64,000 nt of DNA. It comes from Propionibacterium acidifaciens DSM 21887. GTDB lineage: Bacteria; Actinomycetota; Actinomycetes; Propionibacteriales; Propionibacteriaceae. Positions 55,883-64,000 of the stretch are shown piece after piece; the stretch's first letter is position 1; the number at the start of each line of letters is the position of its first letter. The stretch is from NCBI RefSeq assembly GCF_000426605.1, contig NZ_AUFR01000013.1, positions 1 through 64,000 on the forward strand, given 5' to 3'. Under the pieces are notes generated by a model. It was not told the origin of the DNA and did no database searches. It saw only the letters and a program-made list of their open reading frames with translations. Position numbers and translations under genes: made by a program.

Positions 55883-55983
55883 GCGCGCAGAGAGAGCACC
55901 GCCTGCCGTGGTCGGCGCGCGCCTCCCCTCGACACGAGCCCCGGGACGGACCGGAAGCGGGCCGCCAAAGACACCAGCAACCC

Positions 55984-56489
55984 GCGAAGACGACCAGCAG
56001 GGCTGTTGCTGTCATCAACGGCATCGAGGCGGTCAAGAGCCCGCGGTTCGTGAAAACCCTGAACGGCAAGAAGGCCCTCGCCGCGGAGGCCCTCGACCCG
56101 GCTTGTCGGCTGGTCGGGTTGAAAAGCCGTGTCATGAACATGCCAGCCACCCGAATCTCCGCGACGGAAGTCATTGGCGACTATCACGAGCTCTGGCGGG
56201 TCGAGAAGTCGTTCGGGATATCGAGGAGCGACCTGAAGCCCGCCCGATCTTTCATCGCAGCCACGAGGTGATCGAAGCCCGCCTCACCACCATGATGGCC
56301 GCACCCGCCAGCGCCCAGCGCCTGCAAATAATCAACAGGAAATTCATCGCAGAAGTCATCGAAACGCTTGGACTGCTCCACGAAATGAACGTCAATATCG
56401 TCGGGAAAATTCTGCACGTCCACGACGGGATCGCACCCGCAGCCCAAACCATCCTCGACACCCTCTACCTCAGCTGGCCCTCACGCTGA
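55984..56489 (+). pseudogene. decayed IS1634-family transposase, C-terminal remnant
   Basis: Two frames together give the C-terminal part of an IS1634/IS1549-type DDE transposase. The first has AVAVINGIEAVKSPRFVKTL, AGLK-like VGLKSRVMN and EVIGDYHELWRVEKSFGISR; the second resumes as ARPIFHRSHEVIEARLTTMM and ends with IVGKILHVHDGIAPAAQTIL. In intact relatives these are continuous (YHDLWRVEQSFRMSKxDLxARPxFHR). The break is near 56237, where one missing G in AAGCCCGCCCG explains it. The N-terminal two thirds with the first catalytic Asp residues are gone. The remnant sits exactly between the gnd terminator and the defence-like operon. Confidence 0.85.
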
Positions 56490-56691: not shown

Positions 56692-57489
56692 TCAGACAAC
56701 TGCCCGCCGCGCTCCCCTGTACTGGACGGACCTGAAGCAGGCATCGGCCTCGGCATCCACGACCGAGAGGATCTCCTCATCCGATCGGATATCGAGCAGC
56801 AGTGGTCCTGTTCGCTCAGCGATCCGCTTCATGAGCTGACGGGAGAACTCCGTACGTCCACCCGGGTATTTCGAACCGCGCTGGATGATCGTGCGCGCCG
56901 CGGCCACAACCAGCCGTCGGTTCCTGGCCACCGCAGTGCGTTCCTCGAGGATCGCCCCGAACTCATTCTCGCCCAGTCGCGGCCTGGCCTCTTCCATGAC
57001 CTCACCCAGAATGATCCACCGGCGCCAGGAGAGCTTCAGGTAGTTGCGGTCACGGGTCGTCGTCTGGTGACCGATCCACTGCTCGGCGGGCAGGATGAAC
57101 TGACCGTCCTTCCGCTCCCCCGGCCAGCGCCTGTTGACGACATCGGGGAAGACCGCCAAGGACAGGTACGACCATATGCCGTCATGCGCAGCATCCGCTG
57201 GAATCGGATGGATCACCTCCTCGATCGCCTGTCCCAACGCGACACCGAGCGCATCGCGGCCGGCTCGGGAACGCGTATCGACCCCATCGATCCGGTCGAT
57301 GATCTCCCGACGCCAGTGCTCGATGTCCTCAATGGGGGCAGGAGAGCCGCCGGTCGGATTCGGCGTACCCGATACGTCGAGTCTGACCAGTGTCTCGGGC
57401 GACGCCCCTTCCTCGAGAGCACGGGCGTGATTCACGAGCAGCTCGCTCGCCTGTCCGGTGGACAATCGTGGAATGAGGAGTCGGCTCAT
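56692..57489 (-). CDS. DUF6339-family protein, last gene of defence-like operon
   Basis: A 265-residue protein matching, as far as I recall the family, DUF6339. It has RLLIPRLSTGQASELLVNHA at the start, a conserved centre DGIWSYLSLAVFPDVVNRRW and RDRNYLKLSWRRWIILGEVM, and a basic helical C-terminus (RQLMKRIAERTGPLLLDIRS). There is no recognised catalytic motif, membrane helix or signal peptide; the many Trp, Arg and acidic residues suit a nucleic-acid- or protein-binding role. The ATG overlaps the stop of the 295-residue gene (ATGA). The base composition is lower in G+C than the core genes left of it. It probably serves as an accessory subunit of the system. Confidence 0.8.
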   Translation of the reverse strand: MSRLLIPRLSTGQASELLVNHARALEEGASPETLVRLDVSGTPNPTGGSPAPIEDIEHWRREIIDRIDGVDTRSRAGRDALGVALGQAIEEVIHPIPADAAHDGIWSYLSLAVFPDVVNRRWPGERKDGQFILPAEQWIGHQTTTRDRNYLKLSWRRWIILGEVMEEARPRLGENEFGAILEERTAVARNRRLVVAAARTIIQRGSKYPGGRTEFSRQLMKRIAERTGPLLLDIRSDEEILSVVDAEADACFRSVQYRGARRAVV

Positions 57490-58373
57490 GATTTCGCCTT
57501 CAAGAATCCAGTAGTTCTTTGGAGAAGCGCGCAGACCCGACCCGGGTCATCGCGCATCAGCTCCACCGCTCCACGCAGGGGCTGCCCCAAAAAGATATCG
57601 CACAGGGAACCGATGACTGCGCCTGCACTGCCCTCCTGGTATTCCACTCCCAGGTCGTCCCGATCATGAACAGCCAGTTTCAGGAGCAGCTGGAGCAGTA
57701 CATCCCGTTTCAGCACGGATAGAGCGGTATCAGATTTTCCGTGCACAAGTTTACCACCTTCCGAGTGCGCAGTATTAACATACAATCTGACGGCACTCAA
57801 GTATGGCACCGCGAGATCCTCGTCTTGAAACTTGAGCACCCAGACGCTGCCAGTCGGGAAATCTCCGCCCGCGAATTCAAAAGCTTCGATCGGAAACGAC
57901 GAACCGTCCCCCTCGAGCCTGAACCGATAGGGTCTGTTCAGCCCGTAAAGCCTACTCCCCCGCTGATGCGCCGCACGGTTTTCGGGCGCCGGACCATCAG
58001 GAGCATCCAGAACGATCTCGTAGCGGACCTCGAGTTCCTCAGCCGCCTCACCAGCCGGGACTCGCACCTTCAGACTCACTGGCTGGTCACTATTATTCAA
58101 GGGACTGATACCCAGAAATCGTTTGCCCGTGGCTGGACAATCGACGCGCAGAACGGCGCGAATAACGGCGAGCCCAGGATTTCTTGCAAGTCCGGTCGAG
58201 GATAACAGCAAGTCGTTCTTGATCGAGAGCTCACCCTCGATCGTCACCTCGGTAAGATAATCCCATTCTGGAATCTCCGAGCCGGGCTCATAAGCCTTTC
58301 CCCAGATCCTGAGCCGGGGAGGCTGACAGACAACCGCATTATTCGCTGAGGCCCGGAAGGGCATGAGTCTCAT
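57486..58373 (-). CDS. unrecognised 295-residue protein of defence-like operon
   Basis: I do not recognise this family. The product is 295 residues, starts MRLMPFRASANNAVVCQPPR and overlaps both neighbours by four bases (ATGA). The N-terminal 200 residues look beta-rich (LTEVTIEGELSIKNDLLLSS, VSLKVRVPAGEAAEELEVRY, YRFRLEGDGSSFPIEAFEFA), suggesting a beta-sandwich. The last 90 are helical (LLLKLAVHDRDDLGVEYQEG, IFLGQPLRGAVELMRDDPGR). No catalytic motif is evident. Tight coupling between the GHKL ATPase and DUF6339 genes implies it is an obligate partner, perhaps a structural or sensor subunit. Confidence 0.8.
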   Translation of the reverse strand: MRLMPFRASANNAVVCQPPRLRIWGKAYEPGSEIPEWDYLTEVTIEGELSIKNDLLLSSTGLARNPGLAVIRAVLRVDCPATGKRFLGISPLNNSDQPVSLKVRVPAGEAAEELEVRYEIVLDAPDGPAPENRAAHQRGSRLYGLNRPYRFRLEGDGSSFPIEAFEFAGGDFPTGSVWVLKFQDEDLAVPYLSAVRLYVNTAHSEGGKLVHGKSDTALSVLKRDVLLQLLLKLAVHDRDDLGVEYQEGSAGAVIGSLCDIFLGQPLRGAVELMRDDPGRVCALLQRTTGFLKAKS

Positions 58374-60160
58374 TTCGTGACCTCACTTCGAAAAGTGCAG
58401 TTCACCGCCGCGTTCTCCGGATAGCTGATATCAACGTAGAAGACATCACCGCCATGGACTTGAAGACGCTCCGCAGCCGTCACCTCGCCCTCCGCCGTAG
58501 TCCATGAGTCCACCCGTACCTGTTCAGCGTCTTTAATGACGCCGCTCCCCTCGACGACGACCGCAAGATCAGGGGTGACCGTCATAAGATTCGCCCCGGC
58601 GGAGGCCCGCAATTCCAACCGAGTAAGAGCTCGGCCATCAGATGCATCGGGCATGGGCAGCAGCTCCTGGGAAAGCACCTCGACCGAGGCTCTTCTTTTG
58701 GACCCACGAGATCTGCTCCGTCGTCCAGTGGGCATCCCGCTGGCCAAGTCCCCGTCCGCGCCAACAGCCAATACGTCCAATGAGGCTGCCAATCGTCCGG
58801 TCGAGACCCGTTCCCCGGGCTGAACATCATCATCGACAGGATTCAGATAATCCTTTAGGTCCTCCTTGATTCGCCTCAGCGCGACTCTAACAAATGTCCC
58901 CTTCCGCCTTTCGAGTGAATTCGGCTTCCAGTCATCATGAGTTGGCGGTTCGGCTTCTGCGAAGGCGTTGTCGAGCTCGCGAATCGGTTTGAACACGGCA
59001 ACCCAGGAATCTCTGCCGTTCTGAAGATCAGGATATTCTTTTTCGCACACGACCAACTCAGGCTCTCGCATGAGGGTGACGCTGTTCACGAGTTCGTCGT
59101 CCGAGCCGAAGGGGCAGGGTGCGATTGCCAGATGGCCGAGAAGTTGCTTCGGGTTTCCGCACCGGATCTCTGAAACATCAATGAAGGCCTCCTCGGCTTT
59201 TTGTCCGGACTGCACCTTGCGAATCGCAGTCAGACAGCTCTCCCGTGAGGCTCTGATCCGGTCATCCCAACCGGCAGCGAGATCCACCGGGTGCCCATTC
59301 TCGATGAGACTGATCTTCATCTGTTTATCAACTGGTTGACCGGGAATCATTTTGGGCCATAGATTGCGGGCAACAGCATCAGCAGTTGCCTGTACGAAGC
59401 CTTCTTGCCCGCCGTCGTCGAATGCGGGGTCCAGAATCATGATCGAGGTACCGGTCTCCTGTTCGCCGAAACCTCGCTCGAACAACTTCGTACCCAATCC
59501 ATGGGCGGCATCGCCCTCAATGGGCTGAACATTCATACCGTCTTTCAGTCGCTGATCCCTGCCCCACCACTGCTGTCCAGTATATCGCTTCTCACCCATG
59601 CTGAAATTCGGGATGATCGAGATCGCGATGAATCGTTCCTCGAAGCCCTCTCCGCCTCTGATCCTTGTCCAGACGATGATCGTCCCGCACTGACTCGCCC
59701 TGAACGCTGCGGTCTTCCCGAAGCCATAGGTGCCACCGCCGTACTCCAGGTCGCGCGGGGCACCCACCGTCAAGATGAAATCACGAAAATTCGTCGGCTC
59801 GCCCTTGCCAACATGAACATCGTTCCGAGTCGGCCCATCGAGCCCTGTAGTCCCCCGATCGTGCACCTCAATAGCCGAGACCCTGGACCGACGAATAACC
59901 TTGGCGAGCTCACTGCCGGGAAAGGTCTCGGGGAAGACGAAGTTCCGTAGCACACTCATTCTCGGGGCGTCAAGGGTCACGAATCTCATCTGGTATTCAG
60001 GGATCACGCCGTGACCGATATGCGCATCCCAGCTGTTCTGCGCGGTCTCTCTCAGAAAGAGTTTCGGCGCCGCCAGACTCGTCCCCAGGAGCTTCTTCGT
60101 CCCCTCACCCGCGATGTCGCCGTCACGGAAGGGCTTGGGAACCCAGTCAAGCCTGATCAT
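58370..60160 (-). CDS. GHKL ATPase, MutL/MORC-like
   Basis: A 596-residue protein with the Bergerat (GHKL) ATP-binding fold. The N-box is FLRETAQNSWDAHIG (E38, N42, D45), matching the E-x-x-x-N-x-x-D-A pattern of MutL and MORC. The second motif is IEVHDRGTTGLDGP (D101), and the lid with the glycine box is GGGTYGFGKTAAF (141-153). About 400 further residues, partly beta-rich, follow and would hold the S5-like and output domains. Iyer, Abhiman and Aravind described such MutL homologues in restriction-modification operons with Z1 and REase-fold partners. The start at 60160 overlaps the previous gene by 14 bases; a GTG or ATG 21 bases upstream is less likely. Confidence 0.9.
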   Translation of the reverse strand: MIRLDWVPKPFRDGDIAGEGTKKLLGTSLAAPKLFLRETAQNSWDAHIGHGVIPEYQMRFVTLDAPRMSVLRNFVFPETFPGSELAKVIRRSRVSAIEVHDRGTTGLDGPTRNDVHVGKGEPTNFRDFILTVGAPRDLEYGGGTYGFGKTAAFRASQCGTIIVWTRIRGGEGFEERFIAISIIPNFSMGEKRYTGQQWWGRDQRLKDGMNVQPIEGDAAHGLGTKLFERGFGEQETGTSIMILDPAFDDGGQEGFVQATADAVARNLWPKMIPGQPVDKQMKISLIENGHPVDLAAGWDDRIRASRESCLTAIRKVQSGQKAEEAFIDVSEIRCGNPKQLLGHLAIAPCPFGSDDELVNSVTLMREPELVVCEKEYPDLQNGRDSWVAVFKPIRELDNAFAEAEPPTHDDWKPNSLERRKGTFVRVALRRIKEDLKDYLNPVDDDVQPGERVSTGRLAASLDVLAVGADGDLASGMPTGRRSRSRGSKRRASVEVLSQELLPMPDASDGRALTRLELRASAGANLMTVTPDLAVVVEGSGVIKDAEQVRVDSWTTAEGEVTAAERLQVHGGDVFYVDISYPENAAVNCTFRSEVTK

Positions 60161-61127
60161 GTTCAGCCCGCCTCTCACCAAGAAGGGTTTTCACTTGCCC
60201 CCCGGTAAGAGGCTGCTCAGATGTCAGATCCAAGACGTATTTCATTCTCGTGATCGCATGCCGTCGACTCTCGGGAAGATCGCTGGAACGCAGGCCGGGG
60301 AAGTCATCGGTCACCTCCCAGATCACCGGGGATTTCGCGACCTCATATCGTGCATCATCGGAGTCGACGCCCAATAAGAAGCCGCACTCAGCAAGTCTCT
60401 TGACGAGCGCTGACATCGGCAGACCCAGCTCCGTCAGCAGCTCAACCTGATCATGAATGGATCTCCCCGAGGGGGAATCCCTCACGGAGACGCGTACGAG
60501 CAGGAGCGCACGGCCCTGGGGCGGGTCCAGCTGATCAACACTGGAGATGACCACCGACAACCCCTCCTGGGATGAGGTTATGACCTCGAGATCGGCGCGA
60601 GGAGTCATGAAACTATGCGCACCTCCAGCAGGCCCGACCCAGGACTCCACTGCGCGATACGGATTCCCGATGGCAAGAAGTCGCAATACCTCCAGCTCCC
60701 CGAAAATCGCTTTTCGCAGCTTTTCTGATATAGCCGGGGACGCCGGGCTCAGCAGCTGCCGCCATTCTTCCAGCACCGTCTGAAGCACGGATTCCGGTGC
60801 ACTGTCATCCGTCTGAACGCGACGCGTAATATCATCGACCAGAGAGGCGAAGACTTCATGGAATTGATCAACACCGCACATCAGGTCCATGTACCGCCGC
60901 CCTGTCTCGGGGTGCTTCCAGTGAATTAGCGAGAGGGGGCCGCCACTAATTTCAACGAAGGAGTAATCATCTGCGATCGGCATCAGAAGATGCCAGCCTC
61001 CGTTTTGATCCACTCCATATGCCATGGGATGATTAGAATCCCGCGTGGCGCGCACGATCATCGTCGCGGTTTCGCCGCCGTACAGAGAGGCGAGAAGAAG
61101 TCCGAACTCTTTTCGCGATCCGTTCAC
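60147..61127 (-). CDS. PD-(D/E)XK-fold protein (DUF4420/PF14390-like), active site altered
   Basis: A 326-residue protein with the layout of the DUF4420 PD-(D/E)XK family that accompanies Z1 proteins. The family core is present: FGELEVLRLLAIGN (E144), then AVESWVGPAGGAHSFMTPRA and DLEVITSSQEGLSVVISSVD, then RVSVRDSPSGRSIHDQVELL. From memory, active members have HDF and E-V-K at these places; here they read HSF (171-173) and E-V-I (181-183), so the metal-binding Asp and the catalytic Lys seem lost. The protein may bind DNA or scaffold the complex and not cut. It begins with GTG overlapping the Z1 stop (GTGA). Confidence 0.82.
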   Translation of the reverse strand: MNGSRKEFGLLLASLYGGETATMIVRATRDSNHPMAYGVDQNGGWHLLMPIADDYSFVEISGGPLSLIHWKHPETGRRYMDLMCGVDQFHEVFASLVDDITRRVQTDDSAPESVLQTVLEEWRQLLSPASPAISEKLRKAIFGELEVLRLLAIGNPYRAVESWVGPAGGAHSFMTPRADLEVITSSQEGLSVVISSVDQLDPPQGRALLLVRVSVRDSPSGRSIHDQVELLTELGLPMSALVKRLAECGFLLGVDSDDARYEVAKSPVIWEVTDDFPGLRSSDLPESRRHAITRMKYVLDLTSEQPLTGGQVKTLLGERRAEHDQA

Positions 61128-63742
61128 TCCTCATCCTCCCAATCGTCGTCCTCCTCGGGCTCGCCCACATCGACATCGGCCGCCAAGGGCTTGACGCTGA
61201 CAAAATTTCCATATTCTGCATCAGAATGATCCACTGCGGGATAGACGATGCTGAATCCGAGAAGATCCTCACCCACTCCTTGTGGCATGTCCATCCGAGT
61301 AGTCAGCTCGAGTTTATTCTTCGACCGATGACTGATCGGGTAGATCATGACAAGCCCGTCCCCGCCGGCGAGTCTCCTTCTGATGACCATGCGCTGCGCA
61401 TCAGTGGCATTCGGCATGTCTGCATAAGCCTCCGGCTCGATGTCAGCCAATCGATCAGCCGATGACATGATCGCTTTAAAATTCAGCTTTTCCACCGTGC
61501 TGCCCCGCAGCGGAGTGCGCCGAAGCATCGGCACACGAATCCCCGCAACGGGCAGCACGCCAAGAGAATCCATCGCCCCCGGCATCGAATTGCCCGCAAG
61601 AATAATATTCCAACTGCGCTCTTGCGCATATTTCATCAGCCAGTCGATCGTTGCACCGCGAAGATCAGGATCGGAGAAGATCCTCTGGTCAGGATGAAAG
61701 GAATAGCCTTGAAGGAAACCGATGATCGCCCGCGTATCGATTCCGCGAACGATCCAACGACGACCACCCGCCCTCAACGGCCGAGGCTCGCATCCGCTCA
61801 GAAGCCGCTCTACGGCTCGAAGATTCCTACGCGTTGCATCAGGCCTGCCATCCATGATGAAGGTCTGTTGCCGGGCATTACTCATACTGAGGCGAACGAG
61901 CCGAGCATTCGCCATTTTCCCGGCAGAAGTGATCTCTAAACGGCCTGGGTGGCATCGCACCTTCACCCCGACCTGTCTCGGCGTGTACTCACTGTCCTCG
62001 ACGGACCTGATCTCATCACGCAAATCCTTCTCGACGAGTGCCAGGAAAGCATAATCACGATCGAGGCCATCGGCCACCCAGATGCGAAGAAGATCTTCAT
62101 AACCTGACCGATAACCGAACCAGCGCCCCATCTGCATGAGGGTGTCATAGGTGTTCGAGGAGCGAGTGAAGTACGAAACGACGAGGCCTTCCAGGGTCAG
62201 GCCTCGAGACAGAGTGCCGCCGCCCACGACGATTACGGTCCGTGGGCGTCCGGCATCATAATTCAGTCGATCCTCTGATACTCCATTATCAACAATGACC
62301 TCGATGTTTCGAAGTACGCCCGGCAGCTGTTCAGCGACTGCATCCCACTCGGGAGTTGATCGCCCGGCCGGTGCAGCAACTCTCGCGTGCTCGTTCCGCC
62401 AGGACTCGTAGAACTGGGCGAGCCCCGCTTCGCGATGGAATTCAACCTCGCGTCTCATGCGCTGGACTAGAGTCAAAAACCGCTCGCGCATCGCGAAATG
62501 GGGTGCGGTGTAGTGCGTGGTATGGACCAGCATGGACGAATGCCCCGCGTATCCTCGTGCTCTTCGCACAGCACTAGCGACGACGAACCATCTGACCGCT
62601 GAGATCAGAGAGGAGGGCGGCTCGGGATCGAAACTCTCCCGCTGCAGCTTCTTCGACGGCGGCTTCAAGACCCATGAGTCCTTCGCCGGGATGATCCGGA
62701 CCAGGTCGGGCCCCTCGGCCGCAGGCTCAGAATCGTCGACATCCGCGTCGGCGAGCCCGAAAACCTGCTCCGCACCGAGATAACCATCACCCGCGGTCAA
62801 CGTGTAAACAAAATCAGAAGGAAAAAGATCGGCCTCATCATCGGGATCCATCAGCACATTGGCGAACGGTGTAGCCGTATAGGCCACATACGAACCACTC
62901 GGAATCAGATCCCAGATCCTGCGCATCACAGCATTGATCGCAGAAATCTTCTTCTTTTCCTTCTCACTGTTGGGTGTGGCCTGATCCGCCTCATCATCTA
63001 TAATCAGAATCGGGCATTTCCTGCGGATCTCCTCAGGAACATTCCGGAGACTCGCCTCCAAGTTCTTGAGTCGCGTCTTATTCTTCTTGACGACAGCGCA
63101 GAGACGCACATCGCTATGGGAGCCCATGAGGGCCAACAGCTCGCTCCGCCGGTCGAAATCATTGTTCTCAGCACTGGTCAAGTGATACCAGAACTCCCGA
63201 TCGACGAAGAGATCTCGATCCAGACGGCTCTGCGTCTGCTCGCGCAGGTTATTATAGAGGCCTGATAGCACGATGACGAACCGATATCCCATATCGACAG
63301 CCCGAGCGATCACCCCGGAAAAATGACGAGTCTTACCTGACTGGACATTACCCATGACCAGGCCCTTGCGACGCGCACCCGGCTGATTGGGCAGGGCCAG
63401 CAGCGAGCACACCTCCTCAGTGGTTCGAGACAGCTCATCGATACCGAAGGCGTTCTTTCGCTGAAGCATGTCAAGATATCGGCACCACTGAGCACCGCTC
63501 ATGGCGGAGGTCGGCATATCCATCGAACCCTGATACGCGGATTCATCGATGACCGCATGCCTCAGAACGCGATTCCCAGCCATCTCTGACTTGAGGGAAG
63601 TCACGATCTGACGAACGGCTTCCCGTGACACGAATCGCCTGTACTCATGAGCCACCCGGTCAGCCGCCTCATCGATCGATACGCGATCTGATATGACCCG
63701 GTTCATGATCTCTGCAGAGATTCTATCGCGCTCGTCGCTCAT
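61124..63742 (-). CDS. Z1-domain superfamily II helicase-like ATPase
   Basis: An 872-residue protein with a Z1 domain. Walker A is VMGNVQSGKTRHF (131-138) and Walker B is ILIIDDEADQATPN (249-253). Motif III-like AYTATPFANVLMDP follows, and the Z1 hallmark GGGTLSRGLTLEGLVVSYF with YDTLMQMGRWFGYRSGYEDL marks motifs V and VI. A terminal acidic tail (EEDDDWEDEE) ends the protein. Z1 ATPases occur in restriction-like and Mza-type defence operons. The ATG of MSDERDRI is chosen because GAGG lies eight bases upstream and an upstream TGA overlaps it (ATATGAG); a GTG 33 bases earlier is possible. The sequence is clearly AT-richer than the core. Confidence 0.92.
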   Translation of the reverse strand: MSDERDRISAEIMNRVISDRVSIDEAADRVAHEYRRFVSREAVRQIVTSLKSEMAGNRVLRHAVIDESAYQGSMDMPTSAMSGAQWCRYLDMLQRKNAFGIDELSRTTEEVCSLLALPNQPGARRKGLVMGNVQSGKTRHFSGVIARAVDMGYRFVIVLSGLYNNLREQTQSRLDRDLFVDREFWYHLTSAENNDFDRRSELLALMGSHSDVRLCAVVKKNKTRLKNLEASLRNVPEEIRRKCPILIIDDEADQATPNSEKEKKKISAINAVMRRIWDLIPSGSYVAYTATPFANVLMDPDDEADLFPSDFVYTLTAGDGYLGAEQVFGLADADVDDSEPAAEGPDLVRIIPAKDSWVLKPPSKKLQRESFDPEPPSSLISAVRWFVVASAVRRARGYAGHSSMLVHTTHYTAPHFAMRERFLTLVQRMRREVEFHREAGLAQFYESWRNEHARVAAPAGRSTPEWDAVAEQLPGVLRNIEVIVDNGVSEDRLNYDAGRPRTVIVVGGGTLSRGLTLEGLVVSYFTRSSNTYDTLMQMGRWFGYRSGYEDLLRIWVADGLDRDYAFLALVEKDLRDEIRSVEDSEYTPRQVGVKVRCHPGRLEITSAGKMANARLVRLSMSNARQQTFIMDGRPDATRRNLRAVERLLSGCEPRPLRAGGRRWIVRGIDTRAIIGFLQGYSFHPDQRIFSDPDLRGATIDWLMKYAQERSWNIILAGNSMPGAMDSLGVLPVAGIRVPMLRRTPLRGSTVEKLNFKAIMSSADRLADIEPEAYADMPNATDAQRMVIRRRLAGGDGLVMIYPISHRSKNKLELTTRMDMPQGVGEDLLGFSIVYPAVDHSDAEYGNFVSVKPLAADVDVGEPEEDDDWEDEE

Positions 63743-64000
63743 ATCAGGATCCTCAGCATCCCCTGATGGCTGCACCGGTCGTCCTCCAAAGCCCCTGCAT
63801 GTATTTCGAGACGCCCTGGGCCAACAGGATCGGCATCGTTGACATCATCACAATCCCGCCCCTGATGATTTCTACGTGCGAAGCCGAAACGACAGCGATC
63901 ACCCGGCCTATCCGCATGACCTCGAGTACGACCTCCTGCATCGAAGAGGCGGCCAACGGCCAGCCAGGATCCCGCGTTGAGCCTCGCCCCGTGCCAGTTC
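63743..64000 (-). other. unresolved upstream segment of defence-like operon
   Basis: This stretch precedes the Z1 gene and runs off the right edge. Two minus-strand frames stay open from the edge. One ends at the TGA that overlaps the Z1 ATG, as an upstream operon gene would. The other has the better GC third-position bias and ends in LWRTTGAAIRGC at the stop covering 63753-63755. Neither tail resembles a cytosine methyltransferase, a Vsr endonuclease or another family I know. A plus-strand frame is also open. I cannot say which, if any, is coding. Confidence 0.4.

Follow-up and report, generated by a model that had tools for sequence, protein, structure and literature searches.

A Z1/DUF4420/GHKL-ATPase operon of Propionibacterium acidifaciens, probably a disarmed derivative of a known restriction–modification type

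Described operon types and the locus in P. acidifaciens

Among the MORC/paraMORC operons classified by Iyer, Abhiman and Aravind (2008; PMC2292703), the third type combines, in the available part of that article, a superfamily II helicase with the motif DThhQXuRhFG, an endonuclease with the motif E-D-ExK, given there as the signature of the DUF4420-type endonuclease family, and a GHKL ATPase with an S5 domain; it is often accompanied by dcm and by Vsr, the latter being frequent, not universal. The Type I putative defence system of PMC9523054 comprises, in the accessible sections of that paper, a Z1 protein, a PD-(D/E)XK DUF protein (printed as DUF4220) and three more genes, and a cytosine methyltransferase is presented there as a core gene common to all variants of the system. 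ATP-dependent restriction has also been described for CglI/NgoAVII, for which a Z1 domain is named in the accessible text (PMC4267653; also PMC5737866).

The locus compared here with these systems lies in a 64,000-base stretch of DNA of P. acidifaciens DSM 21887, hereafter the window, which forms the start of a 75,952-base contig and is followed by about 12 kb more beyond its right edge. The source genome, the single one for the species, is a 3.04 Mb draft of 85 contigs that is rated 100% complete. On the minus strand, the operon now has as its first intact gene that of a Z1-domain superfamily II helicase-like ATPase (872 aa; 61124-63742; PF10593, 6.6e-67), followed by the genes of a DUF4420 putative PD-(D/E)XK nuclease (326 aa; 60147-61127; PF14390, 2.3e-37), a GHKL-type (MORC/paraMORC-like) ATPase (596 aa; 58370-60160), a conserved 295-aa protein (57486-58373) that adjoins the ATPase in the modules examined and has no Pfam match and, as the last gene, a DUF6339-like protein (265 aa; 56692-57489), whose matches to PF19866 (E 1.2e-4, just under the cut-off) and PADLOC PDC-M33C (2e-4) are weak. 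The GHKL-type ATPase matched nothing in Pfam and no PDB sequence; its assignment is based on a PADLOC match to PDC-M33A (3.5e-9) and on motif residues invariant in 15 sequences, namely E37, N41, D44, D100, T103 and G145-G147-K148, which resemble those of an N-box and a glycine box. PDB sequence searches with three alignments returned no relative, the best E value being 0.22.

The mzaABCDE system, reportedly from Gao 2020, is matched by PADLOC for two of the five window proteins, Z1 as MzaC (1.2e-85) and DUF4420 as MzaD (6.5e-9), whereas none of the five matches MzaA, B or E. CglI/NgoAVII pair a helicase-like ATPase with a methyltransferase, CglI using a phospholipase-D-type nuclease; no domain of this nuclease type was found by Pfam in the five window proteins. 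The putative Z1/DUF4420/C5-methyltransferase defence system of PMC9523054 is reportedly the work of Miller, Stern and Burstein (2022). The present operon corresponds to the third operon type as Iyer et al. set it out in the available part of their article (PMC2292703): the helicase motif is present as YDTLMQMGRWFGYR in the Z1 translation (DTLMQMGRWFG), whereas two of the E-D-ExK residues, dcm and Vsr have been lost. The operon probably also corresponds to Type I in the accessible account of PMC9523054. It has the Z1-domain protein, the PD-(D/E)XK DUF protein and three further genes, which are syntenic with those of relatives, equal the additional Type I genes in number and may be the same ones; it differs in having no methyltransferase and a broken nuclease motif. 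Because neither of two defining features, a methyltransferase and an intact nuclease motif, was found when looked for, the operon does not qualify as a functional representative of these systems and is best called a disarmed derivative of a known restriction–modification type. In a literature search that reached little of the subscription literature, no published example lacking the methyltransferase or carrying an inactivated nuclease came up.

The original prediction had stated that related operons encode a cytosine methyltransferase or a Vsr nuclease upstream, and this is borne out both in the same genus and in the surveyed Z1 modules. At the same site in Propionibacterium australiense NML98A072 (G001; loci L005/L052), the minus strand carries, after the same kinase, genes for a methyltransferase, Vsr, Z1, DUF4420, a GHKL-like ATPase, a 295-aa protein and a DUF6339-like protein. 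There the C5-methyltransferase (631 aa; PF00145, 1.6e-57) and Vsr (140 aa; 7.5e-18) are intact, and DUF4420 has the D and K that are missing here; the operon in the window corresponds to the last five of these genes, in the same order and with 57-73% protein identity. The P. australiense methyltransferase (L005 9217-11112) also bears a C-terminal extension with an EndIII-type 4Fe-2S cysteine motif at residues 593-609 (E 0.0019, just under the cut-off), which suggests a C5-methyltransferase fused to a glycosylase-like domain.

When 391 genomes of the order were searched for the ATPase, 29 proved to carry it, the present one included, and neighbourhoods were fetched for 26 of them, leaving out three with weak ATPase matches (G250, G230 and G159; E 4e-6 to 5e-5). 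In 22 of the 26 neighbourhoods, Z1 accompanies the genes of the ATPase, the 295-aa protein and the DUF6339-like protein, and BLAST located DUF4420 in 21 of these 22 Z1 modules, G111 being the one in which it was not seen. Within the fetched stretches, BLAST also detected the methyltransferase in all 21 other Z1 modules and Vsr in 18 of the 21, while the window has no methyltransferase. Seven of 80 loci appeared methyltransferase-free by BLAST or motif; they were not counted as losses because each touches a contig end. In the remaining four genomes (G030, G049, G064 and G077), the fetched 17 kb contains the genes of the ATPase, the 295-aa protein and the DUF6339-like protein, and neither Z1 nor a methyltransferase is present there; in three of them a NOV_C protein (PADLOC PDC-S36) lies just upstream. 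This compact set of NOV_C, ATPase, 295-aa and DUF6339-like genes (L164 9091-13597, L165 and L166, in G030, G049 and G064) may be a separate, methylation-free system. Another arrangement is seen in G006, where the ATPase, 295-aa and DUF6339-like genes form two tandem sets (L029 11842-15457 and 15688-19000) downstream of a complete methyltransferase-Vsr-Z1-DUF4420 set, the first being 49-53% and the second 42-55% identical to the P. australiense proteins.

The operon sits between gnd and the pdxK/thiD-type kinase gene, in a segment of 8.4 kb (contig 55816-64284). In the two genomes G002 and G003, gnd adjoins the kinase gene, the aligned segments on either side lying about 75 and 130 bases apart; therefore the entire 8.4 kb segment is inserted DNA, and the same site was used in P. 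australiense. Relative to that species, the flanks are 84-87% identical and the operon 69.6%, and dS is 1.3-2.1 for the operon and 0.25-0.32 for three flanking genes. GC3 is 0.61-0.76 in the operon against 0.96-0.99 in its neighbours. Because the operon departs from its flanks in all three measures, the two operons look to have been separately acquired or replaced. The gnd-kinase site, empty in G002 and G003 and occupied in these two species, is possibly a defence hotspot. Where the insertion begins on the left, the plus strand has broken frames (window 55908-56489) that we take to resemble transposase fragments; a Pfam search gave no match to them.

The methyltransferase relic and the loss of Vsr

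Z1 starts at an ATG at window position 63742, and the original prediction was correct that this start overlaps the TGA of a frame open to the window edge: the overlap reads ATGA, and the minus-strand frame spans 63739-63999 (86 codons). Beyond the edge, the frame continues to an ATG at contig position 64098, giving 119 codons (L002 7740-8099, L002 being the region taken from contig 56000-75952, with coordinates equal to contig coordinates minus 55,999). When the region was dinucleotide-shuffled 5000 times, a frame of 86 codons remained open in 13% of the shuffles and one of 119 codons in 5.7%, and at least one of the frames was open across 119 codons in 17.6%; as such lengths are within chance, openness alone has little meaning.

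Extension of the contig and annotation of the minus strand, the check proposed with the prediction, do not bear out an operon running on past the right edge, since beyond position 64000 the minus strand has no intact gene upstream of Z1. About 0.5 kb on, the plus strand encodes a PdxK/ThiD-type kinase (269 aa; contig 64277-65083; Phos_pyr_kin, E 1.4e-63), a divergent, unrelated right-hand neighbour of the sort that had been named in advance as speaking against continuation, and a thioesterase and then an AMP-binding ligase follow on the minus strand. The roughly 0.5 kb between Z1 and the kinase gene constitutes a scar region. A promoter scan of 701 bases yielded a single weak hit, located where Z1 starts, against an average of 0.2 in shuffles, and we draw nothing from it. 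Farther along, a DDE_3 transposase (2.3e-15; L002 19649-19951, contig 75648-75950) runs off the contig end; the contig thus probably stops at an insertion sequence.

Similarity to the P. australiense enzyme identifies the open frame as what is left, in decayed form, of the 5' end of a C5-cytosine methyltransferase gene. The decayed region extends on the minus strand from 63743-64000 on to contig position 64098, and its methyltransferase-like part covers contig 63919-64089. With the P. australiense methyltransferase as query against a 920-base target, tblastn aligned its residues 6-62 at 37% identity over 57 residues (E 8e-7), in the very frame that overlaps the Z1 start, and the DNA alignment with the P. 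australiense region scored 91 where the maximum of 300 shuffles was 60. The relic is visible at the DNA level only against this nearest relative: with the next one, G006, the score was 35, equalled or beaten in 208 of 300 shuffles. When the whole genome was searched with the methyltransferase protein, the relic ranked second (E 0.05). The best match (E 7.5e-4, contig C16) was set aside, as it covers 34 residues of the C-terminal cysteine-rich part and contains no methyltransferase domain.

The relic retains six of 13 methyltransferase-invariant residues and has lost seven. The motif DLF(S/A)GAGG, which does not vary among ten intact rows, nine of them distinct (L053 and L167 are one sequence), appears in the relic as RLFDAGG, with the caveat that four of the seven losses cluster in motif I and that one pair of small indels could explain them. 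A further caveat is that the relic is short and its aligned frame contains no stop; as this frame has no indels either, dating by indels was dropped. The original prediction had further held that the readable tails match neither a methyltransferase nor Vsr. For the roughly 150 bases nearest Z1 this stands, as they match neither beyond chance; it fails for the N-terminal part of the frame, which matches the methyltransferase 5' end and lies about half beyond the window.

No PF00145 match was obtained across the 3.04 Mb genome, the control giving matches in ten of 14 genomes, and the Vsr domain was likewise absent from the whole genome, with control matches in eight of 14. Vsr gave no match in the scar either. 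Another frame of 124 codons (GRVIAVV, ILLAQG...LW) was considered as a Vsr remnant and rejected: a profile of nine Vsr sequences found no significant match, protein alignments were no better than shuffled ones, and 26 of 500 shuffled sequences attained the DNA score.

These results bear on two further readings of the region. The prediction had raised a different first component of the operon, and the 119-codon frame with its ATGA overlap to Z1 would fit one. A new, different protein encoded there is nevertheless scarcely credible, as the frame length is within chance, the frame has no Pfam match and its first half is the degraded methyltransferase N-terminus; what lies upstream of Z1 is instead the expected methyltransferase as a fragment, and Vsr is gone. 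An assembly artefact, in which the methyltransferase and Vsr genes collapsed out of the contig, might be suspected in a draft of 85 contigs. It is very improbable, since the junction is not clean, substitutions occur in the most conserved methyltransferase motif, and the nuclease changes described below are independent of the remnant.

The substituted nuclease motif and the state of the remaining genes

The DUF4420 protein of the window has the family match and does not have an intact E-D-ExK active site. D172 is replaced by S (codon AGT, 60614-60612) and K183 by I (codon ATA, 60581-60579), and E144 and E181 are retained. D172, E181 and K183 are identical in all 107 homologue rows, at least two of which repeat genomes (L052 with L005, L053 with L167), and E144 is invariant in an alignment of 47 sequences. 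The protein keeps 14 of 16 invariant columns, D172 and K183 being the lost pair. These two residues are placed in the active site on the strength of their conservation and of the E-D-ExK motif in the available part of PMC2292703, and the cutting activity of DUF4420 is thus probably dead, as far as substitutions can indicate. The predicted model is good (pLDDT 87.5) and shows the expected arrangement, with E144 in a helix (135-152) and E181-K183 in a strand (178-185). Foldseek with this model returned nothing at E 0.001 or better, and a second structure search aligned mainly residues 3-117, ahead of the nuclease core; neither search placed the model on a known nuclease, and together they neither confirm nor exclude the nuclease fold.

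PD-(D/E)XK enzymes can have catalytic residues that migrate, and a system that still restricts, by means of a relocated residue or of an accessory protein, would be compatible with four of the five proteins being almost fully conserved and with the retention of E144 and E181. The host would then be protected otherwise, for example if the system attacked only modified foreign DNA in the manner of type IV enzymes, which need no cognate methyltransferase. We regard this as unlikely: two of the four catalytic positions are replaced, both being invariant in every one of the 107 rows, and no obvious set of nuclease-like residues emerges from the columns that are invariant in the alignments of the 295-aa protein and of the DUF6339-like protein. 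Another nuclease among these two proteins is possible; the model of the 295-aa protein is weak (pLDDT about 66; 65.8).

The other four genes show little sign of decay. Z1 retains 113 of 114 columns invariant across 21 homologues, the GHKL-type ATPase 45 of 45, the 295-aa protein nine of nine and the DUF6339-like protein nine of ten, which together make 176 of 178 invariant residues. Relative rates were taken as changes unique to the window against those unique to P. australiense, with G006 as outgroup, and amounted to 56/56 for Z1, 43/35 for the ATPase, 6/20 for the 295-aa protein, 16/15 for the DUF6339-like protein and 40/28 for DUF4420. The last change is slightly faster on the window branch, at a level that is not significant (chi2 2.1); the remaining genes thus seem to have evolved without acceleration, the nuclease perhaps excepted.

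All five operon frames, 7.06 kb in total, are open. Under simulated neutral drift, the share of runs with all five still open fell from 35% at 0.005 substitutions per site to 2% at 0.02, and at 0.05 there was none among 300; the mean residue retention was 0.95 at 0.02 and 0.44 at 0.4 substitutions per site. The loss of seven of 13 invariant residues in the relic suggests a distance larger than the open frames allow under drift. From the open frames, the retained invariant residues and the decay of the relic, we infer that selection acted on the remaining genes after the death of the methyltransferase. The timing is rough because the P. australiense operon used for comparison is itself diverged (dS 1.3-2.1 against 0.25-0.32 in the flanking genes), and it is further limited in that 57 residues align, four of the losses may be one event and one genome represents the species; if inactivation was very recent, the open frames prove little.

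A dying element, in which a recent nuclease mutation and a methyltransferase deletion have left functionless genes that are merely unbroken so far, is a possible explanation that we hold with less than even confidence. It would fit the low GC3 of 0.61-0.76, which suggests a fairly recent acquisition, as well as the slightly faster change of DUF4420 and the reliance on a single genome. It fits less well with the loss of seven methyltransferase-invariant residues alongside five open frames that keep nearly all of theirs, and with the simulated breaking of at least one frame in 98% of neutral runs at 0.02 substitutions per site.

A conserved core that has probably lost cutting and protection

The explanation that we consider probable is that an operon of known restriction–modification type has lost both cutting and protection, while the rest is apparently still maintained, perhaps as a non-cutting complex. 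An operon of the Z1/DUF4420/GHKL-ATPase kind would have been acquired horizontally. In its intact form, as in P. australiense, the methyltransferase would mark the host DNA, and Z1 and the GHKL ATPase would scan DNA and direct DUF4420 to unmarked DNA, a scheme that follows Iyer et al. (2008). In the genome analysed here, the methyltransferase and Vsr genes are destroyed and DUF4420 is altered at two catalytic positions.

Restriction without modification should kill the host, and the joint loss of modification and cutting would thus allow the cell to survive. Z1, the GHKL ATPase and the two accessory proteins would afterwards have been kept under selection, and the retained core would most likely be a non-cutting, ATP-driven DNA-binding complex, which is the weakest step of this scheme. 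More specifically, selection might have retained the Z1 and GHKL-ATPase core as a non-cutting device for the binding, looping or compaction of incoming DNA; we advance this version tentatively and consider it on the doubtful side. If true, the core would be a bacterial counterpart of the eukaryotic MORC ATPases, which silence DNA without cutting it, and also of a nuclease-dead blocking complex.

The ordinary part of the finding is that the gene missing upstream of Z1 is the expected methyltransferase; less ordinary is that both activities were probably lost while the ATPases are conserved. Defence-annotation libraries that rely on MzaC and MzaD matches would count this probably disarmed system as active. 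Moreover, the operon lets one ask whether the ATPase core works independently of cutting, a question that bears on the origin of eukaryotic MORC ATPases from bacterial restriction systems proposed in the available part of PMC2292703.
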